From contig JAURUC010000001.1 of NCBI GenBank assembly GCA_030803735.1, positions 4,154,001 through 4,218,000 of the forward strand: DNA of 64,000 nt, read 5' to 3'. The translations under genes were made by a program, and so were the position numbers. The DNA comes from Actinopolyspora lacussalsi. GTDB taxonomy: Bacteria > Actinomycetota > Actinomycetes > Mycobacteriales > Pseudonocardiaceae. Positions 19,694 through 55,496 of this stretch are shown here, in pieces. The notes beneath the pieces are model-generated. The model did not search any database. It was given only the letters and a program-made list of their open reading frames with translations, and was not told the origin of the DNA. Numbering within the stretch: the stretch's first letter is position 1; each line of letters opens with the position of its first letter.

Positions 19694-20406
19694 CGGGGCC
19701 GCCTTTCGTACTAGCTCGTCTTCGCCCGCGGTCTCGTAACCGGAAAACACACTGGACCTCGGTTGGTCACCTACGCCAGCGTCGGTGACCGCCCCAGTGA
19801 CCAACGGCACTTATGGCACTGTTCGGTCTCGGTTTTCGTGCCTGGTCGCTTGGCGGAACCTCTGGCACGGCTCTCGCTGCGGGGCCGGCGACATCGGGTA
19901 GCGACCTACACAACGTCTCCGGCGTCCTCGCGAGAGCCGCACCGGAGAACCCGCGGCGGCGCCGGCTGCGTAAGTGGTGGGGGCTCGGCCTGCGGGGGTG
20001 GTGGGAGTTCGGCGCCGCGTCGTAGCGGCGCGGCGATTTCGCGAGAAATCGACGCCGACCCCTGGGGAGCCGACTCACACACGGGGCGCGAGCGTGGCCC
20101 CACGGCACACGGCGGCACTCACGCGGGAGTGCGCCGTGTTCCCACTCGCGAGTGATGGTTGTGTTCGGCTGAACAGTTCGTTTCGTACCGTTGAGTCGGT
20201 ATAGTGTTCCGTCGGTTACAGCAAAACTCCACGCGCGCGCGGCGCGGCTGCTAACGTCCGGCGGGAAAACGAGACGATCAAGGGGATATCGACGATCGGA
20301 AGTGGTCGGTGGTGCTGCCTCGATCACTTGAATGGGGAACGCGAAGCATGCCTGCTGACGTCGGAGCGAGTGTGTCTGCCGACAGCATCGAAGCTCTGGG
20401 GGAGTC
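19694..20406. other. Gap with a full-length copy of the dispersed repeat
   Basis: No gene is supported. The long repeat unit occupies 19852-20056. Downstream, 20110-20150 holds a G/C-rich inverted segment (GGCGGCACTCACGCGGGAGTGCCGC-like arms), and an AT-rich stretch near 20160-20230 probably contains the promoter of the proline-rich gene. Confidence 0.4.
19852..20056 (+). repeat. Long dispersed repeat, copy A (with palindrome copy 4)
   Basis: It begins GGCGGAACCTCTGGCACGGC, passes through a CATCGGGTAGCGACCTACAC segment and an AGAGCCGCACCGGAGAACCC segment, then GGTGGGAGTTCGGC, and ends with the palindrome GATTTCGCGAGAAATC (20035-20050) plus GACGCC. The same landmarks occur in the same order at 46597, 52497 (inverted) and 55141. 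Internal inverted segments (CACGGCTCTCG / CGAGAGCCG) suggest the transcript could fold. Confidence 0.85.
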
Positions 20407-22374
20407 GTGACGAGTCCGCGGGAACCGATGCCCGGGTCGATGGAACGGCACGAGGCTCGGCCGGGGTTTCCGCGGTCGGAGCAGCCACCTGCCTCCGCGA
20501 CCTCGGCCACCTCCGTCACCGGGACGCCGCCGCCGGAGGGAGCGCGCGGTACGAACTCGGCCGCTGAACCGGTGCGGCCCGGCTTCGCGCAGCCGAACGA
20601 CCCCGACCGCGCGCACGAGTACCGATCCGCGGTGCCCGGCTCGGCGTCCCGAGCGGCCGGGTCCGCTGCTCGGTTCGACCTGCGCGCGGAATTCGCCACT
20701 GCCGCTGCCCAGTCCGATCCGCTCGCGCTGTACAGCCGCCTCGACGGACTGCTGGAGCGTTTCGAGCACGAACGGTCCCGCTCCCCGTGGCGGCCCAGGG
20801 GCCGGGCCGAGCAGACCGAGAACGCGGGCGCCGCCATCTCCGGGGAGCTCGACGGGGCGGGAGCGGTGGCACCGGCACGCGTCGAACCCGTCTCGGGATC
20901 ACTACCACTGCCGCACGCGGTCAACAACGGTGAACAGCGACGCCACGCCGCTCCCGAGAGGCCACCACATCAGGAGAAATCCGAGTCCGCCAACGGCACG
21001 TTCAGCGGCGCCATACCGCTTCCCACCGAGCAGCGTCGTGATGTCGAGCAGCACGCCGCACCGGAAGCGGGGGACGAACCGGAGCCCGAATCATCCGATG
21101 CCGTGCGGCTCGCGGCGGAACATCCTGCCTCGGCAGCCGCCGCACCCGCTCACCGGGACGAATCCGCGCCACGGGACGGTGATTCCGCCGAGGCGCGGGA
21201 ACAACCGCGGGGAAGGCACGCCGGGATGACCGGCTCGCTGGAAGCCGGGGATCCCACGGCTCCCCCTGTTCCGGAGCAGGGGCCCGCGCGGTTCGAACGC
21301 GAGGACGAAAACCCCACCCTGCCGCTGGGCAGCGCGGCGGACATCCTCGGCGTGCCGTCGGAGCAGTCCGTCCCCGACGAGTCCGCGGTCGAGATCGGCA
21401 CGGACGGCTCCGACGAAATCGCGGAGTCCGGGCGGCACGCTCCCGTCGTGGCACAGGAGCAGCCGGCCGCTCGACCCGGCCCTGTTGTCGAATCCGGCCC
21501 CACCATCGAACCCGGGCCCACGGCGGCGATGCCGCCGTCCCATCCGCCGCGTGAGCACGGGGGCCAGCCCACGCCGCGGACCGGTCCCGCCAGCGGGCCG
21601 TTACCCGCGCCGCCCCCTCCCGGCGCACCCCCTCCCGCTCCACCGCATCCCGGATCGCGGCCACCCGTTGAGCCGCCACCCCGGGGGAATGCTCCGCACG
21701 GTGGACAGGCCCCGGTACGGCCACCGGCGAATCCGGCCAGCGGGCCGTTCCCCGTGCCGCAACCTCCACGGCAGCCGATGCCTCCCACCCCTCCGCCGGG
21801 GCAGCCTGCTCCGGCACAGCCCGCACAGCCCGCGCGGCCACCCCAACCACCCCCTGGCAACGGGAGCACCGGACCTTCGAGCGCTCCGTTCCCCGCTCCC
21901 GCGGCGGCACAGTCCGTTCCGGAGGGCACCCCCGCGACACCCTCGCGCCCATCTCCGCGGCAGCCCCAACCGCGGCAGCCCCAACCGCAACCGCTCGCGG
22001 CCGTTCCGGAGGACCGGGACGTCCGCAATCGGCCGTCGGAGCCCTCGGCCGCTCCGACGCCCCAACCGCCCAGGTACGAACCGCGTCCCGACGGAGGATT
22101 CGGCCCCATGGGCTCCGGTGGTTGGTCCGGATCCGGAAACTCCAACTACACCGCCAAGGGCAAGTTCCAGCAGGATCCTGCCGAGCAGGGTGGCGAGGAG
22201 CGTCCCAGGACGAACGAGCTGCGCAGCGGGCAGGGCTACAACCGTGACGACGACGAGGAACAACCGAGGTTCCTGGTGCAGGCGGACGATCTCCACGGCA
22301 CCGACTTCGGGTCCGACCGGCTGGTGGCACCACCGGTCATCGGAGAGGGGCCGCCCGGCTACCCGGGCTTTTGA
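20407..22374 (+). CDS. Long proline-rich disordered protein, partner of EspG locus
   Basis: Start GTG 20407, with GGGGGAG just upstream; 655 residues. No signal peptide or membrane segment. A short helical region (about 80-125: ARFDLRAEFATAAAQSDPLALYSRLDGLLERFEHER) is the only folded-looking part. Acidic and Pro/Ala-rich sequence follows, then about 200 residues of almost pure Pro-rich repeats (375-560), and a conserved-looking acidic C-terminus (DDDEEQPRFLVQADDLHGTDFGSDRLVAPPVIGE). An EspG-family gene follows after a hairpin. Genes of this kind beside espG are often ESX substrates, so a secreted role with EspG as chaperone is plausible but inferred. Confidence 0.75.
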   Translation: MTSPREPMPGSMERHEARPGFPRSEQPPASATSATSVTGTPPPEGARGTNSAAEPVRPGFAQPNDPDRAHEYRSAVPGSASRAAGSAARFDLRAEFATAAAQSDPLALYSRLDGLLERFEHERSRSPWRPRGRAEQTENAGAAISGELDGAGAVAPARVEPVSGSLPLPHAVNNGEQRRHAAPERPPHQEKSESANGTFSGAIPLPTEQRRDVEQHAAPEAGDEPEPESSDAVRLAAEHPASAAAAPAHRDESAPRDGDSAEAREQPRGRHAGMTGSLEAGDPTAPPVPEQGPARFEREDENPTLPLGSAADILGVPSEQSVPDESAVEIGTDGSDEIAESGRHAPVVAQEQPAARPGPVVESGPTIEPGPTAAMPPSHPPREHGGQPTPRTGPASGPLPAPPPPGAPPPAPPHPGSRPPVEPPPRGNAPHGGQAPVRPPANPASGPFPVPQPPRQPMPPTPPPGQPAPAQPAQPARPPQPPPGNGSTGPSSAPFPAPAAAQSVPEGTPATPSRPSPRQPQPRQPQPQPLAAVPEDRDVRNRPSEPSAAPTPQPPRYEPRPDGGFGPMGSGGWSGSGNSNYTAKGKFQQDPAEQGGEERPRTNELRSGQGYNRDDDEEQPRFLVQADDLHGTDFGSDRLVAPPVIGEGPPGYPGF

Positions 22375-22411
22375 TACCGGAATTCTCCGGTTGTCCTGCC
22401 GTGAGTTCTCC

Positions 22412-22459
22412 CTCGGTGGAACCTCTCGTACGGCTCTCGCCGCGAGAGGTTCCACCGAG
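22412..22459 (+). repeat. Perfect 17-bp hairpin made of the left end of the dispersed repeat
   Basis: CTCGGTGGAACCTCTCG (22412-22428) and CGAGAGGTTCCACCGAG (22443-22459) are perfectly complementary, with a 14-base loop TACGGCTCTCGCCG. The left arm and loop match the left end of the long dispersed repeat (GGAACCTC ... GCACGGCTCTCGC). It stands 38 bases after the proline-rich gene and 48 bases before the EspG gene, so it could act as an attenuating terminator. Confidence 0.8.
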
Positions 22460-22506
22460 CGCGTACCCCGCAAACCGAGACGACAAAGTCATACTAGGAA
22501 CCCCGA

Positions 22507-23259
22507 ATGGTCGACACGATCACTCTTTCGCTGCCCGCGCTGGACGTGCTTGGCGAGCACCTGCGGCTCGATGTGCGGCGCTATCCGTTCGAGATTCCCG
22601 ACCTCGCCGACTCGCGGGCGGAGCGGGAGGACGTGGTCCGGCGGGTCTGGAGTGAATTGGAGACCGCGGGGTTGGCCGTGGACGGTCGGCCCGAGCCGGA
22701 AGTGGCCGACGCCCTCTACCTGATGTCCAGTTCCGAGACCTCGATCGCGGCCGCCGGGTTGCTCGACGTCCGAAACGGCCAACGGATGGCGGCGCGAGCC
22801 GTGGCCACCGGGGAGGTGGGGGTCGCGGGCGTGATCACCGCTCGCGGACTCCAGCTCGACTTCATGGCGCCGGAAACGCTGCCCGAGGTATGCGCGCGGC
22901 TGCTTCCCCCCGCTCGTCCCGGACCGGGACGCGAAACCAGTGTGTCGCTGCGGCTGCTGCGCGACGCGGAACACCGTTCCGCCGAGGGGGTGTCGGGCGC
23001 TGCGGATTCACCTTCCGAGGTGGAGGAGATCACGAGGCTGCACAAGTACCGTCTCGGTCACTTCGTGGTGGCGGGCACCGGCGGGGACGGCAATCGATTC
23101 CGCATGCCCACGTTGACGTGGTTCGACACCGATCGCGGTCGCTACACCATGTGCTACGGGCGTTCGGAGGAGGACGAGACGCTCGTCTGCGCACCCGCCG
23201 ACCAGCGGGGTATCGCCGCACGGCTCGGGGAGCAACTGCGTTCGGTCCGGGGCGGTTGA
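22507..23259 (+). CDS. ESX secretion-associated protein EspG family
   Basis: 250 residues from ATG 22507. EspG proteins are cytosolic chaperones that bind PE/PPE-type or similar ESX substrates before secretion. The N-terminus (ITLSLPALDVLGEHLRL ... PFEIPDLADSRAER) and the C-terminal block (GNRFRMPTLTWFDTDRGRYTMCYG ... APADQRGIAARLGEQL) are family signatures. The middle is Ala/Gly-rich and variable. It lies directly downstream of the proline-rich gene, whose product may be its client. No EccC, EccD or mycosin gene is present, so this is a satellite ESX locus. Confidence 0.85.
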   Translation: MVDTITLSLPALDVLGEHLRLDVRRYPFEIPDLADSRAEREDVVRRVWSELETAGLAVDGRPEPEVADALYLMSSSETSIAAAGLLDVRNGQRMAARAVATGEVGVAGVITARGLQLDFMAPETLPEVCARLLPPARPGPGRETSVSLRLLRDAEHRSAEGVSGAADSPSEVEEITRLHKYRLGHFVVAGTGGDGNRFRMPTLTWFDTDRGRYTMCYGRSEEDETLVCAPADQRGIAARLGEQLRSVRGG

Positions 23260-23337
23260 GGTTTCGAGCACGGGTGTAAGGCACCACACGTCGATCGATG
23301 TGTGCGTGCGGCGGCGCGGGTAAGGCAGGCTTAAGTC

Positions 23338-24036
23338 GTGGACAGTGACAGCACCGGGCGCGGCACGGAGGCGAGCGGGACCGAGCGCGACTCGTTGCTG
23401 CGGCTGCTGGGAGGTCGGGCCAGTGCGCTCGACGCGAGCCTGCCACCGGTGGCCTTCGGGCTGGGGTGGGTGCTCAGCGGTGAGTCCGTAGCCGCCGCCG
23501 GGATCTCCGCCGTCGTGGTGGGAGTCGTGATCGGTGTCTGGCGACTCCTGAGCGGTGCGCGTCCGCTGGCTGTGCTGTTCAGCCTGCTCGCCGTGCTGGT
23601 GGGGTCGATCATCGCGCTGCGCACCGGGCAGGCGGTCGATTTCTACCTCGTTCGGCTGGCTTCCAACGCGGCCAGCGGACTGGCCTGGATGATCAGTATC
23701 GCGGTGCGCTGGCCACTGCTCGGGCTGGTGGTGGGCACGCTGCTGGGGCAGCGCACGCGGTGGCGGCGCGATCCCGATCTGCTGCGTGCCTACAGCAGGG
23801 CCAGCTGGGTCTGGGTCGGACAGTACGTCACGCGGCTGGTGGTGTTCATTCCGCTCTGGATGATCAACGCCGTGGTGCCGTTGAGCATCGCCCAGGTGGT
23901 ACTGACCTGGCCGTTGGTGGTGCTCTGCGTCGTGGCCAGCTGGTGGGTGCTGCGGCGTACGCTTCCGCCGGACCACCCCGGTATCCGGCACGCCCGCGGC
24001 CCGGAGGACGTGGTGCGTCGGAGCCCCGGTCGCTAG
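23338..24036 (+). CDS. DUF3159 family integral membrane protein
   Basis: Start GTG 23338, with AAGGCAGG upstream; 232 residues. Four to six hydrophobic helices: residues 37-52 (PPVAFGLGWVLSGES), 55-72, 78-98 (RPLAVLFSLLAVLVGSIIALRTG), 110-145, 160-185 and 188-207. The pattern LLRLLGGRASALDASLPP ... RPLAVLFSLLAV ... ALRTGQAVDFYLVRLASN is that of DUF3159, an actinobacterial family with no known function. It is close behind espG but has its own spacing of 78 bases. The last residues run into a short tandem repeat just after the stop. Confidence 0.85.
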   Translation: MDSDSTGRGTEASGTERDSLLRLLGGRASALDASLPPVAFGLGWVLSGESVAAAGISAVVVGVVIGVWRLLSGARPLAVLFSLLAVLVGSIIALRTGQAVDFYLVRLASNAASGLAWMISIAVRWPLLGLVVGTLLGQRTRWRRDPDLLRAYSRASWVWVGQYVTRLVVFIPLWMINAVVPLSIAQVVLTWPLVVLCVVASWWVLRRTLPPDHPGIRHARGPEDVVRRSPGR

Positions 24037-24038
24037 AC

Positions 24039-24083
24039 CTCCGCTGGCTGGAACTCCGCCCGCTGGGACTCCGCTCGCTGGAA
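24039..24083 (+). repeat. Three tandem copies of a 15-bp unit
   Basis: Unit CTCCGCTGGCTGGAA with small variations at 24039, 24054 and 24069, starting three bases after the DUF3159 stop codon. It would encode a 5-residue Leu/Arg repeat if translated, but it lies outside the gene. Confidence 0.85.
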
Positions 24084-24178
24084 CTCCGATGGTGCGGGGG
24101 CCGAGCCGAGACCGTTCCGCTCGCGCACGGACGGTGAAACCGCTCGCGGATCGCCACCCGGTCAGCGGTAATCGCCGG

Positions 24179-25189
24179 TCAGCGGGTTTCCGTTCCCAAC
24201 AGCCTGTCGTGCAGCCACCGCGCGTGCTCGTCGTCGACCAGCGATTCGGCCGCCAACCACGCCGCTCCGGCGGCGCCGGAGCCCGCCTTGGCCAGCGGCG
24301 CGGCGCTCCGGGCGCGCAGTTCCCGTCGCACGGCCTCGTCGAGCGTTCCCTCGCCGGAGAGTAGGCTCCCGGCCAGCACGATCGGTGACTCCTCGGGCTC
24401 CTTCCGCACCGACAGCGCGTCGGCGGCTAGCAACCGCGCCCCCTTCGCCAGGATCTCCGCGGCTTTGCCGCCTCCTTCCGAGGCCGAGGCGGTGACCAGC
24501 GGCGCCAGCTCGGCCAACCGTGTCGGCGGGCCGTTGCCGAGCAGCGCGACGAGCCTGCGCACCAGCACCGGATCGGGATCGGCCGCCGTCGCCGTTCCCG
24601 GAAGCAGTTCACCGAGCACCGAAGCCACCAGCGGGTCGTGTCGCTCCTCGCCGTGGTCGAGCGCACGCAGTGTCGTGCTCACGGCCTCGCGCCCGAGCCA
24701 GAACGCCGATCCCTCGTCGCCGAGCAGCCAGCCGTAACCACCCATCGTGCGTTCCAGACGGTGCCGCTCGATCCGAGCCGTGATCGAACCCGTTCCCGCG
24801 ATCAGCACGGTGCCGTCGGGCTCGGCGGTACCCGCCGCGAACGCGACCTCGCTGTCGCTGACGGTCCGCACCGCACAGCTCAGACCCAAGGTGCGCCAGG
24901 CCTGCTCGAACAGCCCGGAGACGACCGGGTCGGTGAGCTTGCTGATCCCGGCCATCCCCAGCACCGCCGCGCTCACGCGTTCCGGAACCGTGTCCGACAG
25001 CGCGGTCCGGGTGGCACGTGCGACCTGTTCGACGGCCCGCTCGGGGGGGTGGGTGTTGGGATTGCCGCCACCCGCGTGCCCGGTTCCGAGCGTTCGTCCG
25101 CTCGTGTCGGTGAGCAACGCACGACTGGAAGTGCCACCCACGTCGAGCCCGAGCAGCAGCGGACCGGCCGCGTCGTCGATATCGGTCAA
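24179..25189 (-). CDS. BadF/BadG-type N-acetylglucosamine kinase
   Basis: Start TTG at 25189 (reading MTDIDDAAGPLLLG), with GAGGGGAAC just upstream; a much longer in-frame extension is not family-like. 336 residues. It phosphorylates an amino sugar, most likely GlcNAc, with ATP. ASKHA-fold landmarks: LGLDVGGTSSRALL (phosphate 1), AVLGMAGIS, DSEVAFAAG, TVLIAGTGSITARI (phosphate 2), GYGWLLGDEGSAFWLGREAV (signature of this kinase family) and IVLAGSLLSG (adenosine). It is 232 bases downstream of the SIS gene on the same strand and probably part of the amino-sugar pathway under the DasR-like regulator. Confidence 0.9.
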   Translation of the reverse strand: MTDIDDAAGPLLLGLDVGGTSSRALLTDTSGRTLGTGHAGGGNPNTHPPERAVEQVARATRTALSDTVPERVSAAVLGMAGISKLTDPVVSGLFEQAWRTLGLSCAVRTVSDSEVAFAAGTAEPDGTVLIAGTGSITARIERHRLERTMGGYGWLLGDEGSAFWLGREAVSTTLRALDHGEERHDPLVASVLGELLPGTATAADPDPVLVRRLVALLGNGPPTRLAELAPLVTASASEGGGKAAEILAKGARLLAADALSVRKEPEESPIVLAGSLLSGEGTLDEAVRRELRARSAAPLAKAGSGAAGAAWLAAESLVDDEHARWLHDRLLGTETR

Positions 25190-25421
25190 GTCTGTTCCCC
25201 TCCGAACCCGGTGCTCCCCGCGCTGCGCTGATCGGAGTAGCCTGACGGTGCCCGTCTCACCCCCGCCCCCTCGGTGAGGCGGGCTTTTCGGTGTTCGGGG
25301 TGGTACCGCCGGGTGATCGACTCCGGTGCGGGTGCGCGAGGTCGTGTTGTGCGGCCACGAATCCGCGATGTGGTGATCCTGGCTCGGCGAGGTGGATTCC
25401 GCCACGTCCCGCTCCGGTGTG

Positions 25422-26492
25422 TCACCGGGTGCGGGTCACCTTGTTCAGCCCGCGTGGGCTGTCCGGGTCGGCTCCCCGCTCCAGTGCCAGCGCCAGGGCC
25501 AGCCGCTGCACCGGCAGCACCTCCAGCAGCGGCGCCAGTTCCTCGGGAGTCTCCGGCAGACCGATGCTGTGGGCGCAGGGCATGCCAGCCGCGGCCGAAC
25601 CGATCGCGCAGATGTCGGCTCCCCGCTCGTGCACCGTGCTCAGCACCTCGTTCATGGCCGCCCCGCCCTTCCCGGCGCTGCACAGCGCCAGCACGGCGGT
25701 TTCGGAGTCCACGGCCGCGACCGGGCCGTGCAGCAGGTCCGCTCCGCTGTAGGCCCGTGCCGAGAGGTAGCTGGTCTCGGCGAGCTTGAGCGCCGCCTCG
25801 GCCGCTGTCGCCGAGGAGTAGCCCCGCCCGGTGGTCAGCATCCGGTCGGCGAAGCGGTAGCGCCTTACCGCCTCGTCCAGCTCGTCCGAGGGCTCCAGGG
25901 CGCGCCGGGCCAGCTCGGGCAGCTCGGCGACTCGTTCCGCCTTCCCGCCGCGTATCGCGTCGATCAGCAGGTACAGCGTGAGCAGCGTAGCGCTGTAGGT
26001 CTTCGTGGCGGCCACGGCCCGCTCGGTACCCGCGCGGATGTCCGCCGAGAGCTCGGCGGCGTGGTTCAGGGCGGAGTCCGGGTTGTTGGTCACCGCCACG
26101 GTGGTGGCGCCGTCGCGGCGCGCGGCCTGGGTGACTTCCAGCATGTCGGGGGAGCCGCCGCTCTGGCTGACCGAGATCAGCAGTACTTCGCTCAGATCGG
26201 GCCGGGCGTCGTAGAGCGTGGTGGTCGACGGGGAGACCAGTCCCGCGGGCAGCTGCAGCAGCACCTCGACCAGGTACTTGGCGTACAGCGCCGCGTGGTC
26301 GCTGGAGCCGCGTGCGGCCAGCAGCGCGAAGCGGGGTTTGCGTTCCGCTATACGCCGGGCGACCTCGGCCAGCTCGGGGCGGTTGCCGAGCAGGCCGTCG
26401 AACACCGCGGGCTGTTCGGCGATCTCGGCGCTCATGTACCTGCCGGGATGCTGAGTCCGCTCGTCGGCCCCGGCTCCGGGGTCCTCACTCAT
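25422..26492 (-). CDS. Double SIS-domain protein (GlmS isomerase-like; possible glucosamine-6-P deaminase)
   Basis: 356 residues from the ATG at 26492. Two SIS domains bind phosphosugars: first PRFALLAARGSSDHAA ... LLISVSQSGGSPDMLEV ... AVTNNPDSAL, second DRMLTTGRGYSSATAAEAALKLAE ... FSGADLLHGP-like block (AYSGADLLHGPVA). The C-terminus PRGLNKVTRTR matches the isomerase half of GlmS (usually PRNLAKSVT). There is no N-terminal glutaminase, so it cannot be GlmS. NagB-II/AgaS-type deamination of glucosamine-6-phosphate is most likely, with the neighbouring GlcNAc kinase. A dre-like site lies 34 bases upstream of the start. Confidence 0.87.
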   Translation of the reverse strand: MSEDPGAGADERTQHPGRYMSAEIAEQPAVFDGLLGNRPELAEVARRIAERKPRFALLAARGSSDHAALYAKYLVEVLLQLPAGLVSPSTTTLYDARPDLSEVLLISVSQSGGSPDMLEVTQAARRDGATTVAVTNNPDSALNHAAELSADIRAGTERAVAATKTYSATLLTLYLLIDAIRGGKAERVAELPELARRALEPSDELDEAVRRYRFADRMLTTGRGYSSATAAEAALKLAETSYLSARAYSGADLLHGPVAAVDSETAVLALCSAGKGGAAMNEVLSTVHERGADICAIGSAAAGMPCAHSIGLPETPEELAPLLEVLPVQRLALALALERGADPDSPRGLNKVTRTR

Positions 26493-26525
26493 GTCGTGAT
26501 CCGTTCGTGGTCGTGCGAGAATTTC

Positions 26526-26535
26526 GGTCTAGACC
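26526..26535. promoter_or_regulatory. dre-like operator for a DasR-type repressor
   Basis: GGTCTAGACC, a perfect 10-bp palindrome in the context TTCGGTCTAGACCAAT. The recalled DasR consensus (dre) is ACTGGTCTAGACCACT, so the core is identical. It lies between the divergent SIS and GntR genes, close to the SIS start (26492), which suggests direct repression of the amino-sugar genes and perhaps autoregulation. Confidence 0.85.
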
Positions 26536-26729
26536 AATGCTACCGATAGCTCCGGCGGGCCGACAGCCCCGCTTGTCCACCGAACTCGCGGGCCGCACGA
26601 CGGGTTGTGACCCCGGGCATATCGACAAGGGGGCGGCGGGATGCGATTCCTACTGTGCCGTGAAACTCCGGCATGCTGGAATCGGTAGTGCTGATCGCCC
26701 CGTTCGCAGGCGCGACGGTAGGAGGAAAC

Positions 26730-29963: not shown

Positions 29964-31091
29964 GTGAAGTTAGGGATCGCCTGCCGTCTCGTGGGGACCC
30001 TGTTGTTGGCAACGGCCACCGTCGCGACCGCGGCACCGGCCGCCTCGGCAGCCGACAACACGAACACCGCTGAACCGGACGGGGCCGCTTCGCTGCTCAA
30101 GGCGATGCAGCGCGACCTCGGTCTCAGCGCACGCGAGTCCCGGCTGCGGTTGTACCAGGAGACGATAGCCGAGCAGGTCCGCCACACGCTGCGGCGCACG
30201 CTGGGGAACTCCTACGGCGGCGCGCACTACGACGCCGCGAGCGGGCGGCTGGTGGTCGGCGTGACCGACCGCTCCCGGCTGGCCGACGCCCGCGCTGCCG
30301 GTGCACGGGCCGAGCTGGTCCAGTACAGCTCCCGGTACCTCGAAGGCATCGCCGAGCGGCTGGACGGATCGCTGCGCGGCGCCCCGGCCGCGGTGACCGG
30401 GCACTACGTGGACACCACGGACAACTCGGTGGTGCTCACCGCCGAACGGGGCAGCGCGCCGCGGGTGCGGGAGTTCCTCCGCTCCACCGGAGTGCCCACC
30501 GAGGCGGTACGAATCACCGAGACCCCGGGCGAGCCGCGACTCTACGCCGACGTGATCGGCGGCAACCCCTACTACACGGGCGGTGACACCCGCTGTTCGA
30601 TCGGCTTCGCCGTCCGGGGTGGATTCCTCAGCGCGGGGCACTGCGCCGCCACCGGGGACGGCACCAGCAACCCGGCGGGGACGGTGGCGGGCTCCTCCTT
30701 CCCCGGTAACGACTTCTCCTTCGTCCGCAGCTCGGCACCCGGTAAACCGCTGGTCAACGACTACGGCGGTGGCACCGTCAACATCGCGGGCTCAACGGAG
30801 GCGCCGGTGGGAGCCTCGGTGTGCCGCTCCGGCTCCACGACCGGCTGGCACTGCGGCACCATCGTCGGCAAGCACCAGAGCGTGCGCTACCCCGAGGGGA
30901 TCGTCGAAGGACTCACCCGTACCGACGTCTGCGCCGAGCCCGGCGACTCCGGTGGTTCGTTCGTCTCCGGGCGGCAGGCGCAGGGAATCACCTCCGGTGG
31001 TTGGGGCAACTGCACCTCCGGCGGGACCACCTTCTTCCAGCCGGTCAACGAGGCACTGGGCCACTACGGCGTCTCTCTCCTGACCGGCTGA
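29964..31091 (+). CDS. Secreted S1 protease with alpha-lytic-type prodomain (streptogrisin-like)
   Basis: Start GTG 29964, with AGGGAGG upstream; 375 residues. Signal peptide to about residue 30 (APAASA-A). The prodomain (about 40-190; LQRDLGLS-type start AMQRDLGLSARESRLRL, GRLVVGVTD, YVDTTDNSVVLTA) acts as a folding chaperone and is removed. The mature protease begins near ADVIGGNPYYTGGDTRCSIGFAV. His226 (SAGHC), Asp250 (GNDFSFV) and Ser329 (CAEPGDSGGSF) complete the triad; Cys pairs 211/227, 287/297 and 323/353 fit the family's disulphides. No C-terminal binding domain. The second secreted S1 protease in the window. Confidence 0.95.
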   Translation: MKLGIACRLVGTLLLATATVATAAPAASAADNTNTAEPDGAASLLKAMQRDLGLSARESRLRLYQETIAEQVRHTLRRTLGNSYGGAHYDAASGRLVVGVTDRSRLADARAAGARAELVQYSSRYLEGIAERLDGSLRGAPAAVTGHYVDTTDNSVVLTAERGSAPRVREFLRSTGVPTEAVRITETPGEPRLYADVIGGNPYYTGGDTRCSIGFAVRGGFLSAGHCAATGDGTSNPAGTVAGSSFPGNDFSFVRSSAPGKPLVNDYGGGTVNIAGSTEAPVGASVCRSGSTTGWHCGTIVGKHQSVRYPEGIVEGLTRTDVCAEPGDSGGSFVSGRQAQGITSGGWGNCTSGGTTFFQPVNEALGHYGVSLLTG

Positions 31092-31129: not shown

Positions 31130-31189
31130 GGCGGAACCTCCGGCACGGCTCTCGCCCAGCGGCGCGGCGATTTCGCGAGAAATCGACGC
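31130..31189 (+). repeat. Internally deleted copy of the dispersed repeat (palindrome copy 5)
   Basis: The left end GGCGGAACCTCCGGCACGGC-TCTCGC is joined almost directly to the right end CAGCGGCGCGGCGATTTCGCGAGAAATC (palindrome 31169-31184) plus GACG. About 140 bases of the central part seen in the full copies are missing, leaving both ends intact. Confidence 0.8.
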
Positions 31190-31413: not shown

Positions 31414-31505
31414 GTCAATTTCTCGGGTGGGGTCAGGTGGTGAGTGCAAGGGTGAGTTGTTCGGTGGGGTTGTTCCAGTTGAGGGTTTTGCGGGGGCGGG
31501 ATGTC
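31414..31505 (-). mobile_element. Remnant of an IS30-like transposase C-terminus and element end
   Basis: On the minus strand the bases below 31505 read S-R-P-R-K-T-L-N-W-N-N-P-T-E-Q-L and end at TGA 31433-31435. RPRKTL(G/D/N)W followed by P-x-E is the C-terminal signature of IS30-family transposases. Beyond the stop, ACCCCACCCGAGAAATTGAC (31414-31432, minus strand) looks like the element terminus. Part of it recurs at 61623-61651. Only 22-25 codons remain, so the element is dead. The upstream edge runs in the same frame into a palindrome copy (31506-31521). Confidence 0.7.
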
Positions 31506-31521
31506 AATTTCTCGCGAAATC
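31506..31521. repeat. Dispersed palindrome, copy 6, fused to the IS30 remnant
   Basis: AATTTCTCGCGAAATC. Unlike the other copies, it adjoins recognisable insertion-sequence DNA on its left, which is the basis for proposing that the palindrome is built from insertion-sequence ends. Confidence 0.8.
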
Positions 31522-31647
31522 GTCGGGCCGTGCCGTCGATCGCCGGAGCGTACGGCCACACGGGAAGTGGTGTCGTTCCGCTTCGGCTCGCGGTCACCCG
31601 ATCCGGTCGTCCACCGTGCTTCGCGGCCGTACTGGGCTCACCAGCGG

Positions 31648-32322: not shown

Positions 32323-32462
32323 GCTTCCAGGGTAGGCCACGCGCCGGAGGGTGGCGCCAGTCACATCCCGCTGTGGCTCCGGTGGAAACATGTCGTCGAC
32401 GTGACCAGTGGCTCGTCGAGCACCACCTGACGCGGACGGAGTTCATCACCTAAGCTGTGCGG

Positions 32463-32552
32463 TGGGTACCCGCGGGAGTCCGGCCGAACGGACTGAGAGG
32501 GGGCTGAAGCCCCGACCGCCGAACCTGATCCGGATCATGCCGGCGCAGGGAG
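32463..32552 (+). ncRNA. TPP riboswitch (THI element) for thiOSG
   Basis: Conserved THI blocks appear in order: CGCGGGAGTCCG (32471-), GGACTGAGAGGGGGC (32490-), GCCCCGACCGCCGAACCTGA (32509-) and TCCGGATCATGCCGGCGCAGGGA (ending 32551). The 3' AGGGAG of the aptamer is also the likely Shine-Dalgarno of thiO, whose TTG is at 32559, so TPP binding should block translation start directly. No separate expression platform is visible. Confidence 0.95.
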
Positions 32553-32558
32553 CGAGCA

Positions 32559-34638
<2,080 letters not shown>

Positions 34639-37941: not shown

Positions 37942-38140
37942 CGGATTCGCCCCACGCTTCCCCTGGTGTGTGCTCGTACTGACGTATCGACGGCGATGCC
38001 GACGATCGGCTGTTACCAGGGCAGGGGTCCCCGAACCACTCTGCCGTGGTAATTCAGTCCCTCGTCGGATACGTCGACACACCCCACGATCAGGGTTACC
38101 GAGCAGCGAGCGAAATCACTCGTTAGTAGGGCTTTTCGGC

Positions 38141-38156
38141 GATTTCTCGCGAAATC
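38141..38156. repeat. Dispersed 16-bp palindrome, copy 7
   Basis: GATTTCTCGCGAAATC with GGC to the left and GCCGCGCCC to the right, a perfect consensus copy. It lies 34 bases beyond the stop of thiD (minus strand) and upstream of the FUSC gene. Confidence 0.85.
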
Positions 38157-38189
38157 GCCGCGCCCGGGATCGTCGGGGCCGGGTGGCGA

Positions 38190-46545: not shown

Positions 46546-46596
46546 CCCACGAGGCTAATGGTGTTGCGTCGGCCCGGTTTCCGTAGCCGGTCGGGT

Positions 46597-46774
46597 GGCG
46601 GAATCTCTCGTGCGGCTCTCGCTGCGGGTGCCCCGACATCGGGTAGTTACTACACAACGTCGGGGCCGTCCTCGCGATAGCCGCACGAGAGAACCCGCGG
46701 CGGTGCCGACTGGATGAGTGGTGGGAGTTCGGCACTGCATCGAGGACGCGGCGATTTCGCGAGAAATTGACGCC
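46597..46774 (+). repeat. Long dispersed repeat, copy B (with palindrome copy 8)
   Basis: GGCGGAATCTCTCGTGCGGC, CATCGGGTAGTTACTACACA, CGCACGAGAGAACCCGCGGC, GGTGGGAGTTCGGC and the palindrome GATTTCGCGAGAAATT (46753-46768). About 28 bases shorter than copy A in the central part. Confidence 0.85.
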
Positions 46775-47805: not shown

Positions 47806-47936
47806 GACCCCGGCGTTACACCCGCGCATCCGCCGATGATCGAACCGGCGTCGCCGCGGAGTCCTGCCTCAGCCGCGCCGCGGTTGGTGGAGTGGATACC
47901 GGGGAGCCGAGTTGTTCCGGTAGCCACGCGGCGTAC

Positions 47937-49597: not shown

Positions 49598-50156
49598 CGA
49601 GGTGGCTCGCCCCTGCGTCGACGGATAGGGCTGCGACGTGTCGGTTGCGTCGCCGCCGCTACAGCATCGCTGATATCCGGTCGCCGGTTGTGCACAGGGG
49701 GTGGGGTAGGTCGCTTACCTGCTGTGTCGTGGTGTGCGCGCGGTCACGTCACTGCCGCGATCCGCCGCGGACCGGTATCTCGGAACACGCCGACCCGATC
49801 GTGACCGACGCGCGGTACGGAAAACGGGCTCGGACGAAAGTACGCTCCGGGGCGACATCAGCGCCCCCGATGCGCCGATGTCGTCCCGGAGTCACGACCG
49901 CTCGGGGTCTCCCCGCTGACTCCGAACGGTCCCCCCGGTGGATCCGTGTGCCCCCCGACGGCACACGCACCCGAAGTCGTCATCTCCAGGAGGTGGAAAC
50001 CGTGCCGGAAAGCCCCGACACGTCTTTGGATGCAATCCATCGACTGGTTGTGATGCTGATACCAGTGTAATAGAACTCATAGGGAACTGCGTAGCCGCGA
50101 ACGGAGGACTTTCGTCACAGATTTAATGACTTTGCGTGTATCGTGCCGCTATTGCC
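49598..50156. other. Long intergenic region without a supported gene
   Basis: A gap of 559 bases upstream of psd. I see no coding pattern, tRNA or repeat copy. Short frames exist, but their composition is unlike neighbouring genes. An AT-rich stretch at 50040-50160 adjoins the 3' end of the M48-like gene. Confidence 0.4.
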
Positions 50157-52142
50157 TCACTCGAATTGATGATTATTTTCGGCCGTCGCCATGCGCGCTC
50201 CCATGAGTTCCCCCAACCCCGAGTAAGGGGCTCCGCGCGCTCCCGAATCCGGGATACTGCGAATTCGGATTCTGGTCATCTCCTCGTCGTCCGGCGACTC
50301 CGCTTCACCGGAGTCCGTGGCGCGCGAGGAAACCTCCGAGACCGCGTACTCGTCCAGGTAGAGGTCCAGCGTCAGTTCCCAGTCCGCACCGTCCTCGTGG
50401 AGCTCGGCCGTGGCCACGTCCCGGCTGTCCAACCACTGCGCGCCCTCTTGTTCGCGCAACCGGTGCGCCGGGGTGGCCGCCAGCCGGTCCAACCGTTCGT
50501 GCTCGGAGCGGCGTACCGGAGTCAGCGCTCCGGCGAGCAACCGGTACATCCAACGGGTCCGATCGGGCAGCAGCAGCAATCCGCGATCGGTGACCAGCAG
50601 GTCGTAGGACTCCTCGGCGTAACGAACCGGGCTCACGATCCCCGAGAGCTTCGGTTCGGGCTCCTCGGCCGCGGGCTGCGCGTGGTCCAGCGGCACCCCG
50701 AGATGCACCAGGTGGCGGTGCAACCCGGGTACGAGCCGTGGATCGAGCACGGCGGGTCGTACCAGCTTGTCGGGATCCAGTGCACGGCCGTCGGTGAGCT
50801 GGACAGTGGAGGGGCCGCCCCAGTCCAGCTGGTGATGAGCACGTTCTGACCTGACCAGCGCGTCCACCACCGCGGCACCGAGCAGCTCGGTCATGGTGTC
50901 CACGACGGCTTCGTCCACCAGTTCCGGGGCGAGCCCGGGGTTGAGCGCGGGGTTGATCAGATCCGCCGTCTCCCCTCGGTGAATGGCGGTGAGCACCCCC
51001 ACCAGGGTCGGCTCCGTCGACACCCCGCTCTGCTCGACGGCCGAGCTCAGCTCACCCGCCTTGACCGCGACGTCGTGCATACCGGCCAGCCTCGCCAGTT
51101 CGGGCCAGGGAGTACGTTCCCCGAGGTCGCCCACCAGCAGTCGGTCCTCGATCGCCGGAACATCGCGGCGGGGTTCACGTATCAGTGCGAGCGCGGGACG
51201 ATCGTCGGTCTCGTCGGGCTCGTGACCGGCCCGTTTCAACACGTCGAGCCGTTGCGCGACCGTGGGACACGCCGCATCCGCGGATTTCTCGGCGGCGATG
51301 CTCTCCTTGGCCCGTTCGGCGAGTCCGTGCTTGCGTTCCGGGTGTTCCAGGAACGCGCGGAAACCGGGCAGTATCTCCGGTGTCCGCCCCACCCGGGTGG
51401 CCATGCTCAGGTACTCGGCGCTGTAGTCCTCCCAACCGAGCTCCAGGCCCACCCGCTTGCGCAGCGCCGCCATCGTGGTGCGTTTGCCCGCCAGACGTAC
51501 GGCCACGGCATCCCCGCGCATCACTCGTCCACGGGCCAGTGGTGCCGTGATCCGCCTGCAGAGCACTACGTATCCGCTGAACAACCACTTGGTGGGTCCA
51601 CCCACCATGTCGCGTTCCGCCTCGATCACGGCGTCGCGTATCCGGACGGACAGGGCGTCCAACCCACCGCCCTCCCTCTTGCCGATCTCGTCGGCCAGCA
51701 CCGCGGACAGTTCGGTCACGGTGAGACCCGCCAACAACGGCAGACCGAGCTCCAGGTGCGACTCGCTGCGCAGCAAGCCCAACAACCGGGTCCGTTCCCG
51801 CATCCGCAGCGTCGGTTCGCACGTCACGCGCAGTTCGTCCGGGCTGTCCGCCTCGGCGGTCTCGGCGACCTTCCGCAGTCTGCGCCACAGCTGTGGCTGT
51901 GCCTCACCGTCCACCACCACACCGAGTGGGGGGCGGTGCCCCGCACGCAGTACGCCCCGGAGAACCATCGCTACCGAGGCCCCGACCAGCAGAGCCGCGA
52001 ATCCGGCCTGCAACCCGTCGCCGAGGTCGTGACGAATCGTGTAGGCCGTGATACTCACCAGGCCGAGGACCAGTGCTGCCGGTACGACCAAGAATCCGAT
52101 GTGCAGCGCCACCGCCAGGGCAGCGCGCCATGGGCCACGCAC
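50157..52142 (-). CDS. M48-like membrane protein with a destroyed zinc motif
   Basis: 661 residues from GTG 52142, with GGGAG about 10 bases upstream. Two hydrophobic helices (about 10-36 and 44-65) are followed by a region laid out like M48 peptidases: GLPLLAGLTVTELSAVLADEIGKREGGGLDAL (135-165). The family's H-E-x-x-H is replaced by D151-E152-I-G-K155, keeping the Glu but losing both zinc histidines. The segment after it (IRDAVIEAERDM) and a third helix (WLFSGYVVLC, about 190) also follow the M48 plan. The C-terminal 300 residues are unrecognised. A pseudoprotease is likely. Confidence 0.7.
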   Translation of the reverse strand: MRGPWRAALAVALHIGFLVVPAALVLGLVSITAYTIRHDLGDGLQAGFAALLVGASVAMVLRGVLRAGHRPPLGVVVDGEAQPQLWRRLRKVAETAEADSPDELRVTCEPTLRMRERTRLLGLLRSESHLELGLPLLAGLTVTELSAVLADEIGKREGGGLDALSVRIRDAVIEAERDMVGGPTKWLFSGYVVLCRRITAPLARGRVMRGDAVAVRLAGKRTTMAALRKRVGLELGWEDYSAEYLSMATRVGRTPEILPGFRAFLEHPERKHGLAERAKESIAAEKSADAACPTVAQRLDVLKRAGHEPDETDDRPALALIREPRRDVPAIEDRLLVGDLGERTPWPELARLAGMHDVAVKAGELSSAVEQSGVSTEPTLVGVLTAIHRGETADLINPALNPGLAPELVDEAVVDTMTELLGAAVVDALVRSERAHHQLDWGGPSTVQLTDGRALDPDKLVRPAVLDPRLVPGLHRHLVHLGVPLDHAQPAAEEPEPKLSGIVSPVRYAEESYDLLVTDRGLLLLPDRTRWMYRLLAGALTPVRRSEHERLDRLAATPAHRLREQEGAQWLDSRDVATAELHEDGADWELTLDLYLDEYAVSEVSSRATDSGEAESPDDEEMTRIRIRSIPDSGARGAPYSGLGELMGARMATAENNHQFE

Positions 52143-52530
52143 AGTGACAACTCCCGACTGATATTGGTCCGCGAATGCCCGGTCAGGCTAGTCACCTGAG
52201 GTGCCTCGGCGGTAGGGAGCCCGATGCACCGCCGGATCGTTCCAGTTCACAGGGGGTTTCCCTTGTTTTCGGTCCGACACCACCGCTACGCGTCGTGCCC
52301 GTGACGTCGCCGGAGCGGCGTCGATTTCCCGCGAAATCACCGCGCCGCTATGACGCAGCGCCGAACTCCGACCACCCTCGTAATCGGCGCCGCCGCGGGT
52401 TCTCCGGTGCGGCTCTCGCGAGGACGCCGGAGACGTTGTGTAGGTCGCTACCCGATGTCGCCGGACCCGCAGCGAGAGCCGTGCCAGAGGTTCCGTCGAA
52501 CGACCATCTATGCCAACCGCGCGGCGGCTC
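52143..52530. other. Gap with an inverted full-length repeat copy
   Basis: No gene is supported. The gap between the divergent part of the M48-like gene and the moeA stop holds the long repeat in inverted orientation (52316-52497), with about 170 bases of promoter region to its left. Confidence 0.45.
52316..52497 (-). repeat. Long dispersed repeat, copy C, inverted (palindrome copy 9)
   Basis: On the minus strand it runs from GGAACCTCTGGCACGGCTCT (52497 downward) through CATCGGGTAGCGACCTACAC and AGAGCCGCACCGGAGAACCC to the palindrome. On the plus strand the palindrome reads GATTTCCCGCGAAATC (52323-52338), one change from the consensus. The sequence is very close to copy A. It ends 33 bases before the moeA stop codon. 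Confidence 0.87.
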
Positions 52531-53784
52531 CTACTCCAATAGCCAGATGTCGACGGTACTTCCGGCCGTTACTTCGGTGCTCTCCTCCGGCAACTCCAAC
52601 AGGCAGTCGGCCGCGGCCATCCCGGACAGCAGGTGGGAGCCCGCCCCGCCACTCGTCGTCACGGTGTCGGCCTCCGGATCGAAGCTGCCCCTGCGGTACT
52701 GCCGTTTCCCGCTCGGTGAGCGCAGCGTCTCGGTGAGCGTCACCCGGCGATGCGGACGCCGCGTCTCGCGGTGCCCGCCGGCGCGGCGCAGCGCGGGACG
52801 GACGAACACCTCGAAGGACACGATCGAACTGACCGGATTCCCCGGCAGCGTGACCACCGGTACGCGGTACCCGGCCGCCTCGTAGTGTCCCGAGCCCTGC
52901 GGCATTCCCGGCTGAATGGCTACCTTGTCGAACCGCACTCCGGAACCCGCCAGCGCGTCCTTGACCACCTCGTACGCTCCGGCGCTCACCCCGCCGGAGG
53001 TCAGGATCAGATCGGTCTCGGCCAAGTGGGGAGCCAGCGCGGCGTGCAGCTCCGAAACCTCGTCGGGAACGAACCGCAGCAGTCTCGCCTCGCAGCCGCA
53101 CTGGCGCACCGCGGCGGCGAGCATGGTGCCGTTCGACTCGTAGATCTGGCCCGACAGCAACTCCGTGCCCGGCTCGACCAGTTCGGAACCGGTGGAAAGC
53201 ACCAGCACCCTCGGGGGGCGGTGAATCGGCAGCTCGGCGTTGCCCACGGCCGCGGCCAGCCCCAGCTGGGCCGCTCCCAGCGTCTGTCCCCGTTCGAGGA
53301 TGACCTGGCCCACGGTTACGTCTTCGCCCGCGCGACGGAGGTTGCTTCCCTCGGGCACCGCGCGGTGCACGGTGACGCGTTCCGTGCCGCCGTCGGTGAG
53401 TTCCACCGGCACAGCGGCTTCCGTACCGGGGGGAAGCCGCGCTCCGGTCATGATCCGGTGTGCGGTGCCCGGTTCCAGCGGCGGAATTTCCACCCGTCCG
53501 GCAGGGATGTCCGCGGTCACCGGCAGCGTTACGGGGTGCCGCGAATCCGCCTCGGCCACGTCCGCGGCGCGCACGGCGTAGCCGTCCATCGCCGAGTTGT
53601 CGAACGGCGGCAGCGGGATCGGTGCCGTCACGTCCTCGGCGAGCGCCAGCCCCAGGCACTCGTCGAGGGGACAGTGTCGCTCCCGGGTGGCGGCGAGCAG
53701 GTTCGAGATCCGCTCGCGGTACTCGTCCACCGGCAGCAGGGTTGAAGTGTCAGTCGTGTGGCCCACGCCCCGATCATCGGACAT
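52531..53784 (-). CDS. moeA: Molybdopterin molybdotransferase MoeA
   Basis: 417 residues from ATG 53784. It inserts molybdate into adenylylated molybdopterin to form the molybdenum cofactor. Blocks: LGLALAEDVTAPIPLPPFDNSAMDGYAVRAADV, HRIMTGARLPPGTEAAVPVE, the MoCF-binding core VLVLSTGSELVEPG, ESNGTMLAAAVRQCG, DLILTSGGVSAGAYEVVKDAL and TLPGNPVSSIVSFEVFVRPAL, and a C-terminal beta domain. It takes the place of Rv0438c (moeA2) in the conserved order after psd. No molybdoenzyme is nearby. Confidence 0.95.
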   Translation of the reverse strand: MSDDRGVGHTTDTSTLLPVDEYRERISNLLAATRERHCPLDECLGLALAEDVTAPIPLPPFDNSAMDGYAVRAADVAEADSRHPVTLPVTADIPAGRVEIPPLEPGTAHRIMTGARLPPGTEAAVPVELTDGGTERVTVHRAVPEGSNLRRAGEDVTVGQVILERGQTLGAAQLGLAAAVGNAELPIHRPPRVLVLSTGSELVEPGTELLSGQIYESNGTMLAAAVRQCGCEARLLRFVPDEVSELHAALAPHLAETDLILTSGGVSAGAYEVVKDALAGSGVRFDKVAIQPGMPQGSGHYEAAGYRVPVVTLPGNPVSSIVSFEVFVRPALRRAGGHRETRRPHRRVTLTETLRSPSGKRQYRRGSFDPEADTVTTSGGAGSHLLSGMAAADCLLELPEESTEVTAGSTVDIWLLE

Positions 53785-53985
53785 CGCACGCCCGATGTCG
53801 CCCCCGGCTCGTCGTCACCGGCACACCGAGGTCGGTTTCGACCGGGGTTTCCGACGGGGTTTCCGGTCGACCGTTCCAGAGGTGTGCTCGTCGTGGCGTC
53901 CGTCCGTGGGGAGTGGTGCGCATGGCAGACTTCGACGGGGTGATCGTGCTCGGCGAAGTGTCGTGCCGCGGCTGGGGAGGTGATC

Positions 53986-54642
53986 GTGCAGGTTCGTTCC
54001 CGTCATCAGTCCTCGTTCGGCGTGGCCCGTCTCGTGCTCGGCGCGGGAGAAGTGGCGCGTGCCGGATGCGAGGCGATGGCCACCAGTTACGGGGTGACGA
54101 GTACCCGTGCCGCGCGCCGAGGGGGTTTCAGGGCGCTGGTGGGTGACTCGATCCCCGAGTCCGCTTACTCGGCCGGGCCGCAGGGTGGGTGGGTCGATGT
54201 GGCACCCAGCTTTCCCGGCGACGTGCACACCATAGAGCTGGACGGCAACAACGACTGGTGCATCGCGCGGGAATCCTGGTTGGCAGCGGCGGGAACGGTG
54301 CGACTGGACACCCGATGGCAGGGTTTCCAACCCCTGTTCGGCGGACGACCCGGGTTTCTCGCGCACGCCACCGGACAGGGACAGCTGGTGCTGGCCTGCT
54401 GCGGTGCGCTGGACGTGCACGATCTGCGGGCCGGTGAGTTCGTGACGATCGACACCGGACATCTGGTGGCCTATGTGGACACCGTGCAGTCCCGCCTGCG
54501 GCAATTCGAACCCGGCCGCGCACAATCCCTGCGTACCGGGGCGGGACTGGTTTTCGATTTCGCCGGTCCGGGGCGGGTGGTGACCCAGACCCGCAATCCG
54601 CGCAGATTGTCCTCCTGGCTGCACTCGGCGAGCGGGCACTGA
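53986..54642 (+). CDS. AIM24 family protein
   Basis: GTG 53986 is preferred (218 residues) because GGGGAGG at 53974-53980 is correctly spaced; an in-frame GTG at 53980 overlaps it. The family (named for a yeast mitochondrial protein) has a beta-barrel/double-psi-like fold seen in bacterial TIGR00266 proteins. Visible pattern: GWVDVAPSFPGDVHTIELDGNNDWCIARESWLAAAG, FLAHATGQGQLVLACCGALDVHDLRAGEFVTIDTGHLVAYVD, and GLVFDFAGPGRVVTQTRNPRRL at the end. No signal peptide. Biochemical function is unknown. It is divergent from moeA. Confidence 0.85.
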   Translation: MQVRSRHQSSFGVARLVLGAGEVARAGCEAMATSYGVTSTRAARRGGFRALVGDSIPESAYSAGPQGGWVDVAPSFPGDVHTIELDGNNDWCIARESWLAAAGTVRLDTRWQGFQPLFGGRPGFLAHATGQGQLVLACCGALDVHDLRAGEFVTIDTGHLVAYVDTVQSRLRQFEPGRAQSLRTGAGLVFDFAGPGRVVTQTRNPRRLSSWLHSASGH

Positions 54643-54898
54643 TTCCGGGAACACGTTCGTGGTCGATCTTTCGGGGGAAGTCACGGTGATGCGTGGTCCC
54701 GCACGCGAACTCCTCGGATTCCCGCCGGGAATTCCCGTGTCGAACGCCGTGATCCGGTGGTTCCCGACGGGACTTTCCTCGGAAAAGATCACCTGAATCG
54801 GTCCGGTCGAGATCGCGACTTCCACCGACTCATGCGGTAGCGTAGCGCTTGCTACATCGGCGCCCAGGCGTCGCGCATCATATTTCAAGGAGGACACC

Positions 54899-55102
54899 GT
54901 GGCGATCGGCACGGTCAAGTGGTTCAACTCCGAAAAAGGCTACGGATTCATCGCCACCGACAACGGGTCGGATGTCTTCGTGCACTACACGGCGATCGAG
55001 ATGGACGGATTCCGCACCCTCGACGAGGGGGACCGCGTCGAGTACGAGGTGAAGCCCGGACGGGACGGGCGGAGTCAGGCGGACGGTGTCCACAAGATTT
55101 AA
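54899..55102 (+). CDS. Cold-shock protein (CspA family)
   Basis: 67 residues from GTG 54899, with AAGGAGG 8 bases upstream. A single-stranded RNA/DNA-binding beta barrel: [19 protein letters not shown] carries RNP1 (KGYGFI), followed by VFVHYTAI (RNP2), [14 protein letters not shown] and QADGVHKI. The 250-base upstream gap could give a long leader, as in many csp genes. A long copy of the dispersed repeat starts 38 bases after the stop. A second csp gene is at 63584. Confidence 0.96.
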
Positions 55103-55496
55103 CCGGACTGTGTGGCCTCTTTTGTCGTAAGTGGTTCTGTGGCGGAACCTCGTGCACGGCTCTCGCTCCGGGAGGCCCGACATCGGGTAGCCACCTACAC
55201 CACGTCGGGCCTTCCTCACGAGAGCCGCACCGGAGAACCCGCGACGGTGCCGAATGCGATGGTGGCCGGAGCTCTGCCTGCGGGCGTGGTGGGAGCTCGG
55301 CCGGCGGGAGTTGGCGGAGGGACGGCCTCACACCACCCTGCTGGCGCGGCGATTTCGCGAGAAATTGACGCCGCGCCGACGGCGAGCCGCCGCACCCGTT
55401 CGAGAGTGGGCGGTGGCCGCGGGAACTGCTCCACTCGGATGGTGTGACGGCCGCACCGGCGGACGTTGATGCGTCCGGAACGTTAGGCTGATCGGC
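55103..55496. other. Gap mostly filled by a dispersed repeat copy
   Basis: Contains the longest repeat copy (55141-55372) and about 120 bases before the kinase start. No gene is supported. Confidence 0.5.
55141..55372 (+). repeat. Long dispersed repeat, copy D, longest (palindrome copy 10)
   Basis: It starts GGCGGAACCTCGTGCACGGC, then CATCGGGTAGCCACCTACAC, AGAGCCGCACCGGAGAACCC, then a longer Gly/Arg-coloured stretch (GGCGTGGTGGGAGCTCGGCC) and ends with GATTTCGCGAGAAATT (55351-55366) and GACGCC. At 232 bases it is longer than copies A-C; the extra bases are in the region just before the palindrome. Confidence 0.85.

Follow-up and report, generated by a model that had tools for sequence, protein, structure and literature searches.

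A high-copy composite repeat of Actinopolyspora lacussalsi with a long covarying hairpin, found mostly just past stop codons

We analysed a window of 64,000 nucleotides (positions 4,154,001 to 4,218,000 of contig JAURUC010000001.1) from the 5,028,440-base genome of Actinopolyspora lacussalsi (G000 in our comparisons), which carries four copies and one truncated form of an interspersed repeat, lying among genes such as those with MoeA and cold-shock domains (Table 1). A first-pass annotation, made from the sequence alone, had reported these four copies and a deleted form, with a common series of landmarks ending in a palindrome, and all were found again at those places and in that order. Small departures from the landmarks were seen in the copy at 46597, which reads GGCGGAATCTC and GCGATAGCC, and in the copy at 52316, which reads CGACGGAACC and GTGATTTCGCGGG. 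The deleted form keeps both ends, as had been said, with the 5′ arm joined straight to the palindrome.

It is clear from the copies that the repeat extends further than had been reported and is a composite 3′-end module, consisting of a leader of some 30 nt after the stop codon, whose consensus is weak, a long hairpin designated A (about 108 nt, running from GGCGG to CCGCGG), a spacer in which one or two repeats of about 24 nt were made out by eye, and a small palindrome, P. The arms CGGCTCTCG and CGAGAGCCG, predicted earlier to pair, do pair, but they are just part of hairpin A. When an iterated profile was run over 2.46 Mb of the genome (49%), 248 matches were obtained: 73 full units, 31 hairpins without a clear palindrome, 103 palindromes alone and 41 others. 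A blastn search of the unit against the genome gave at least 57 matches, with 40 of 393 first-look candidates scored.

P was much more frequent than chance would give: it was found 11 times in the window at up to 3 mismatches (0 in 100 shuffles) and, with no more than 2 mismatches allowed, 237 times in the genome, where the reversed control gave 0; in this genome count a near-palindrome can be taken on both strands. In 73 of 104 copies hairpin A is followed by a P of like orientation, in 2 by an oppositely oriented P only, and P lies within 220 nt of 110 of the 1847 other gene ends. P had been regarded as the fixed end of the unit; it turned out to be a separable module, both from the palindrome-only matches and the hairpins lacking a clear P, and from four genomes (G001, G002, G005 and G006) with hairpin matches and without the exact 18-mer of the palindrome. 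Of 116 stretches carrying the exact palindrome, the 80 listed all came from Actinopolyspora (A. righensis, A. alba, A. mzabensis and A. xinjiangensis). In the 183 sites carrying one of four allowed loops, the loop was GCGA in 160 and the variable pair was G-C in 113, G.T in 62, A.C in 5 and A-T in 3. This pattern fits an RNA hairpin of the sense strand, and the folding strand of P is clearly the sense one. A Noc/parS-like site, considered for the palindrome, was rejected because the variable pair follows G.U and not a strand-neutral change. A replication-strand signal was likewise rejected: in the 2.46 Mb covered, co-orientation with the fork was observed in 36 of 45 exact sites, 44 of 64 with 1 mismatch, 40 of 78 with 2 mismatches and 50 of 73 full units, which may be explained by gene orientation. 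Other small repeated words were also noticed in intergenic regions of this genome, e.g. around CCACCTCCACGCACGTGGAG and CCCCGCGCACGCGGGG, in 7-9 regions each.

A sense gene was located upstream of 62 of the 73 full units, compared with 48% by random placement, and hairpin A started 28-43 nt past the sense stop codon in 55 of 73, compared with 1.6%. For the units without a clear P the figures were 23 of 31 and 18 of 31, and over all hairpin A copies the 28-43 nt spacing was found in 73 of 104. Convergent gene gaps housed 39 of the 73 full units (23% expected). TAG was the stop codon ahead of 20 of 76 units, a higher share than among genes overall (229 of 2009). In the window, the truncated unit comes after the gene of a trypsin-like protease, which ends at 31091. 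Some copies, on reading, come after a terminator-like structure with a T run and not after a stop codon. We also noted a copy at G000:C1 3594859 (+), located 32 nt past a stop codon just downstream of a DnaA domain; this is probably the end of dnaA, near the presumed origin.

The distribution of hairpin A was examined with two covariance models. The first (R1), built on hairpin A, gave matches in 13 of 41 genomes, namely all nine of the genus and four from as many other genera of the family; eight genomes of the genus held at least 89 matches each and G006 held 3. The second (R2), with 33 candidates scored per genome, matched 29 of the 110 genomes sampled from the family, belonging to 12 of 46 genera. 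The number of matches per matching genome ranges from one to 124, the highest being in G021; a few places are counted on both strands. When R2 was run on 148 genomes of the class (G000 among them), no match was obtained in the 147 others, with 25 candidates scored per genome, a depth at which weak matches may be lost. The leader TTGCGTAGCGGTGCGGGT recurs in loci of other genera, where the small downstream hairpin was often seen by eye to be AGCGGC..GCCGCT in place of P. The stop-to-hairpin distance in these genera was often close to 36 nt: 31-42 nt in 8 of 8 loci of G013, 36 nt in 4 of 7 of G020, 27-47 nt in 4 of 7 of G022, and 26-43 nt in 10 of 21 further loci. In Rfam, the window gave the TPP riboswitch alone, and copy 1 and eight loci of other genera gave just matches below the gathering score; our best reading takes hairpin A as a new structured-RNA family. 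Nothing on the element turned up in the literature searched, though it may nonetheless be in print.

Compensatory changes across relatives support a folded molecule. The alignment A2 comprises 37 sequences of five genera: 8 Actinopolyspora copies and 29 of 30 loci of other genera, the latter drawn from 188 matches in four genomes with the rearranged copy L369 left out. The loci of other genera rank near the top by their score under a model that already has this structure, a selection that favours the structure. Changes on both sides were found for 22 of the 37 pairs in A2 and filled 188 cells, compared with 58.1 after shuffling (0 of 500 reaching it) and no more than 54 with slid partners. Arms of single copies were parsed as well, and the counts refer to the parsed rows: 76 of 103 in the re-dealing test, 74 of 103 for pair types by column and 23 of 103 in another parse. 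The outer arms paired better with their own partner than with a re-dealt one (-14.88 vs -11.90 kcal/mol, 0 of 2000, 38 distinct pairs), and so did the inner arms (-10.14 vs -9.15 kcal/mol, 2 of 2000, 34 pairs). In outer column 4, C-G was found in 40 copies, G-C in 26 and no pair in 8; in outer column 3, U.G (30) was accompanied by C-G (14), U-A (13), G-C (5) and A-U (3), with 9 unpaired. Between genera the stems differ, GCGG/CCGC becoming GGGG/CCCC in the G013 rows (columns 7-109, G-C for C-G in 4 sequences) and GTAG/CTAC becoming GAAT/ATTC in G020 and GTAT/ATAC in G022. The loops stay while the stems vary: AAC/AAC near the base is conserved across genera, UGC/UC higher up is conserved, and so is the apical loop. 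As to the first-pass annotation's remark that the unit encodes no conserved protein, arm lengths were seen to differ by one base. RNAalifold on the first alignment returned just 8 pairs, because gaps had been set beside bulges, and was replaced by a structure named by hand. The first-pass annotation's proposal of a structured RNA is supported, as to the fold, by the many compensatory changes found; it mentioned neither the association with stop codons, nor that the palindrome can stand apart, nor the second hairpin family described below.

This second family, hairpin B, gave 31 matches in the G000 stretch, 3 of them overlapping A matches. It has other stems than A, a similar apical part (GAGTAG..CTACGC) and the same kind of leader, and 20 of 29 copies lie 20-43 nt past a stop codon; the one in the window is about 30 nt past that of a methyltransferase-like gene (Methyltransf_19). 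Sites of G000 were compared with those of named relatives (80 of 116 named loci taken in), and of 48 comparisons 32 kept both family and orientation; in 11 the other family stood there with its orientation unchanged, in 5 the hairpin was absent, and none was merely reversed. The 11 cases correspond to 8 distinct sites, of which 4577630 and 4258236 showed, on reading, B with A versus A alone; at 6 sites A/B differences were found between loci 94.8-98.0% identical, and at three of these B stands behind a remnant of A. A further A/B case was found at L119. At several sites two species were seen by eye to match up to the stop codon and to diverge from there. In the window, the site of copy 2 holds the 5′ arm of A followed by hairpin B in A. 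righensis and A. alba, the site of copy 3 holds in A. righensis a hairpin B on the same strand and an A on the other strand, and in the gap of copy 4 an oppositely oriented hairpin was found in G001 and G005; the comparison with G-coded genomes and that with named relatives are not independent of each other. Chimeric or nested A/B copies were observed at G000:C1 3302277, 3497098, 3743495 and 4062100.

The copied part was delimited by comparing copies with each other (89 of 104 A copies and 21 B copies). In 117 pairs of A copies with no more than 5 mismatches over 100 nt, the leaders differed about as much as those of random pairs (0.48, 0.49, 0.54 and 0.55 in the nearest four 6-nt bins, compared with 0.53, 0.50, 0.48 and 0.47 for random pairs), and in 137 pairs of B copies the values were 0.74, 0.69 and 0.46, compared with 0.73, 0.69 and 0.46. 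Near-identical hairpins thus have unrelated leaders, so the hairpin and not the leader is the copied unit. Of the defined ends expected by the first-pass annotation, the 5′ boundary is sharp, at the hairpin foot, but the 3′ one is not, because likeness declines there over some 40-50 nt.

Our best reading, for which we consider the chances evenly balanced, is that A and its relative B constitute a family of structured RNAs which belongs to the 3′ untranslated regions (3′ UTRs) of mRNAs and spreads by copying. A transcript would pass the stop codon and the leader of about 30 nt into the long hairpin, which would be followed by a small one (P here, AGCGGC..GCCGCT in other genera). With its conserved loops the long hairpin would most likely act on the mRNA end, shaping or protecting it, probably through a bound factor, and would be copied from one 3′ end to another; such copying would account for uniform copies within a genome and for A/B differences at one site. 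It is rather doubtful, though conceivable, that there is a dedicated mRNA 3′-end system peculiar to the family, in which long hairpins with conserved loops would be bound by a family-specific putative factor and set at a near-fixed distance past stop codons, and A/B cassettes would be exchanged between genes by a putative hairpin-copying process. If so, the cell would have swappable 3′ ends.

Several observations weigh against the 3′-UTR reading. The gene calls came from our own simple callers (2009 genes in the G000 stretch). In the window, copy 1 has no sense gene called just upstream, and both called genes adjoining copy 2 are on the opposite strand, so that both are exceptions to the stop-codon rule. 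G021, with its 124 matches, lacks the spacing: of 8 loci one was at 49 nt, four at 79, 103, 246 and 259 nt, and three had no called gene. In G118 and G091, with a single match each, the hairpin comes after gatB, a gene that has GatB domains, which speaks for the reading; the distance of 14 nt, outside the usual spacing, speaks against it (the third genome of their genus is G058). Moreover, 81 of the 110 family genomes have no match and the copy number ranges from 1 to over 100, which indicates that the hairpin is not essential in the family. Finally, in 96 of 103 copies of A it is the antisense strand that gives the better fold, and there several of the conserved C.A mismatches would read G.U; the acting strand of A may therefore be either.

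The main rival is a selfish, non-autonomous mobile hairpin resembling the known REP and ERIC repeats, moved in trans by a putative enzyme acting on folded single strands and having no job in the host; the placement after stop codons would then reflect a target preference, or the purging of other landings. We regard this as a tenable possibility, tentatively put below an even chance, and it can be true together with the 3′-UTR reading. High copy number, genus-specific versions, the near-identical hairpins with unrelated leaders, the A/B differences and absences between relatives, the nested and chimeric copies and the better antisense fold all agree with it, as may the hairpin foot: of the copies that could be parsed, 46 of 97 for A and 23 of 28 from other genera have GT(A/G)G (GTRG) there, similar to a REP head. 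The first-pass annotation had likewise suggested a non-autonomous transposable element; spread by copying is supported, but neither a target duplication nor a matching transposase pattern was obtained. The similarity of each copy's own leader to its 3′ flank was 14.00 compared with 13.99 after shuffling (75 copies). Y1 transposase (Y1_Tnp) was present in 8 of 10 genus genomes and fails to track the hairpin: G002 and G008, where the hairpin has at least 89 matches per genome, gave no match to it, and G006, where the hairpin has 3, gave 2. Among 12 Y1 loci (of 24 listed matches), no RAYT transposase flanked by two inverted copies was found, a hairpin lay nearby only at L304, on a single side, and a palindrome pair lay about 1 kb from the transposase, on one side, at L303 and L308, the latter two speaking for mobility. 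Reverse transcriptase (RVT_1), sought as the mark of a group II intron or retron element, was found in just 1 of 10 genus genomes and not in G000, and no autonomous parent element with the same ends was encountered in the loci read, no systematic search having been made. The same site after gatB in two species also argues against a purely selfish hairpin.

It appears quite improbable that the antisense strand is the acting molecule, for instance as the hairpin of a small RNA transcribed from beyond the 3′ end. The more stable antisense fold points that way, as do sporadic one-sided changes, mostly C.A on the sense strand and hence G.U on the antisense; however, the sense strand has G.U at the nearly invariant pair 38-81 in 36 of 37 sequences and U.G as the most frequent pair of outer column 3 (30 of 74), the stop codon to which the distance is tightly kept is the sense one, and P is clearly a hairpin of the sense strand. 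Template switching between arms can make both arms match, and junctions inside the arms do recur, but such quasipalindrome correction is a scarcely probable source of the paired changes without selection for a folded molecule, since mismatches and internal loops are kept and not corrected (of 74 copies, 59 have C.A at outer column 6 and 55 have A.C at outer column 7, and AAC/AAC near the base recurs across genera) and the stems differ between genera with constant loops.

A few further features of the window were recorded besides those in Table 1. Short tandem repeat units adjoin copy 2 from about 46778 onward, with fewer units in the A. righensis stretch shown; a weak match to both covariance models at 22390-22460 (-), 23.8-23.9 bits, is possibly a worn copy; and the TPP riboswitch lies at 32462-32568 (+), with 61.5 bits, over the gathering score.

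Table 1. Repeat modules and adjoining genes in the window (R1 and R2, first and second covariance models)
Feature	Position	Strand	Remarks
Hairpin A, copy 1	19848..19965	+	R1 133 bits, R2 99.7 bits; sequence read
Palindrome P of copy 1	20033..20055	+	exact match
Hairpin A, copy 2	46593..46709	+	R1 131.6 bits
Palindrome P of copy 2	46751..46773	+	exact match
Hairpin A, copy 3	52384..52501	-	R1 131.2 bits; about 31 nt past stop codon of MoeA-like gene
Palindrome P of copy 3, decayed	52318..52340	-	2 mismatches
MoeA gene upstream of copy 3	52531..53730	-	MoeA domains
Hairpin A, copy 4	55137..55253	+	R1 123.2 bits; 36 nt past stop codon of cold-shock protein gene
Palindrome P of copy 4	55349..55371	+	exact match
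Gene upstream of copy 4, cold-shock domain (CSD), 67 aa	54899..55102	+	domain match
Truncated unit: 5′ arm of hairpin A (to ..CGGCTCTCGC) fused to P (31167-31189)	31130..31189	+	sequence read; R1 just 21.4 bits
Hairpin B	9120..9221 (end approximate)	+	B profile 94.3 bits; R2 weak, 9118-9235, 22.7 bits
P without hairpin A	1006..1028	-	1 mismatch
P without hairpin A	4876..4898	-	1 mismatch
P without hairpin A	10264..10286	+	2 mismatches
P, degenerate	31501..31523	-	3 mismatches
P matching both strands	38136..38161	.	2 and 3 mismatches

The element was compared with known systems. On reading the five window copies, no T run was found after A or P as would be seen in an intrinsic terminator. The attC sites of integrons are imperfect hairpins just past the stop codon, with the fold kept more than the sequence and with RYYYAAC/GTTRRRY ends. 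Hairpin A resembles them in the first two respects, but on reading it lacks these ends, and here the genes stay while the hairpins differ. Repetitive extragenic palindromes (REP) and their mosaics (BIME), with the RAYT transposase, share with our element the high copy number, the extragenic location near gene 3′ ends and the mosaic arrangement (PMC2817692, PMC12306157). A possible further likeness is the REP head GT(A/G)G, which stands at the hairpin foot in roughly half of the G000 copies that were parsed and in most of those parsed from other genera. REP palindromes are about 20-37 nt long in the table passage of one source (PMC2817692). Hairpin A is thus too long for a REP, whereas P alone would suit that length; in contrast to a short palindrome we have a hairpin of about 108 nt with conserved internal loops, mostly 28-43 nt from a stop codon, and no RAYT flanked by inverted copies in the loci examined.

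The ERIC/RU repeats and others resembling miniature inverted-repeat transposable elements (MITEs) are similar as non-coding palindromic intergenic repeats of about 100-170 bp (PMC2759123, PMC10969869). In the present element, however, the stems covary across genera, the orientation is sense, the spacing is to the stop codon, and neither a target duplication nor, in the loci read, a parent transposon was found. The BOX and RUP repeats of pneumococcus are of modular build. They are also small interspersed repeats whose transcription has been studied (PMC3049150). Our element differs from them in its near-fixed position after the stop codon and in its two exchangeable hairpins. Known high-copy bacterial repeats are mostly short palindromes of unclear use, whereas the high-copy repeat described here has a large fold that covaries, loops kept from genus to genus, a closely set distance from the stop codon and two families at the same sites, which makes testable both the role of long 3′-UTR hairpins in bacteria and the copying of repeats that lack an obvious transposase.

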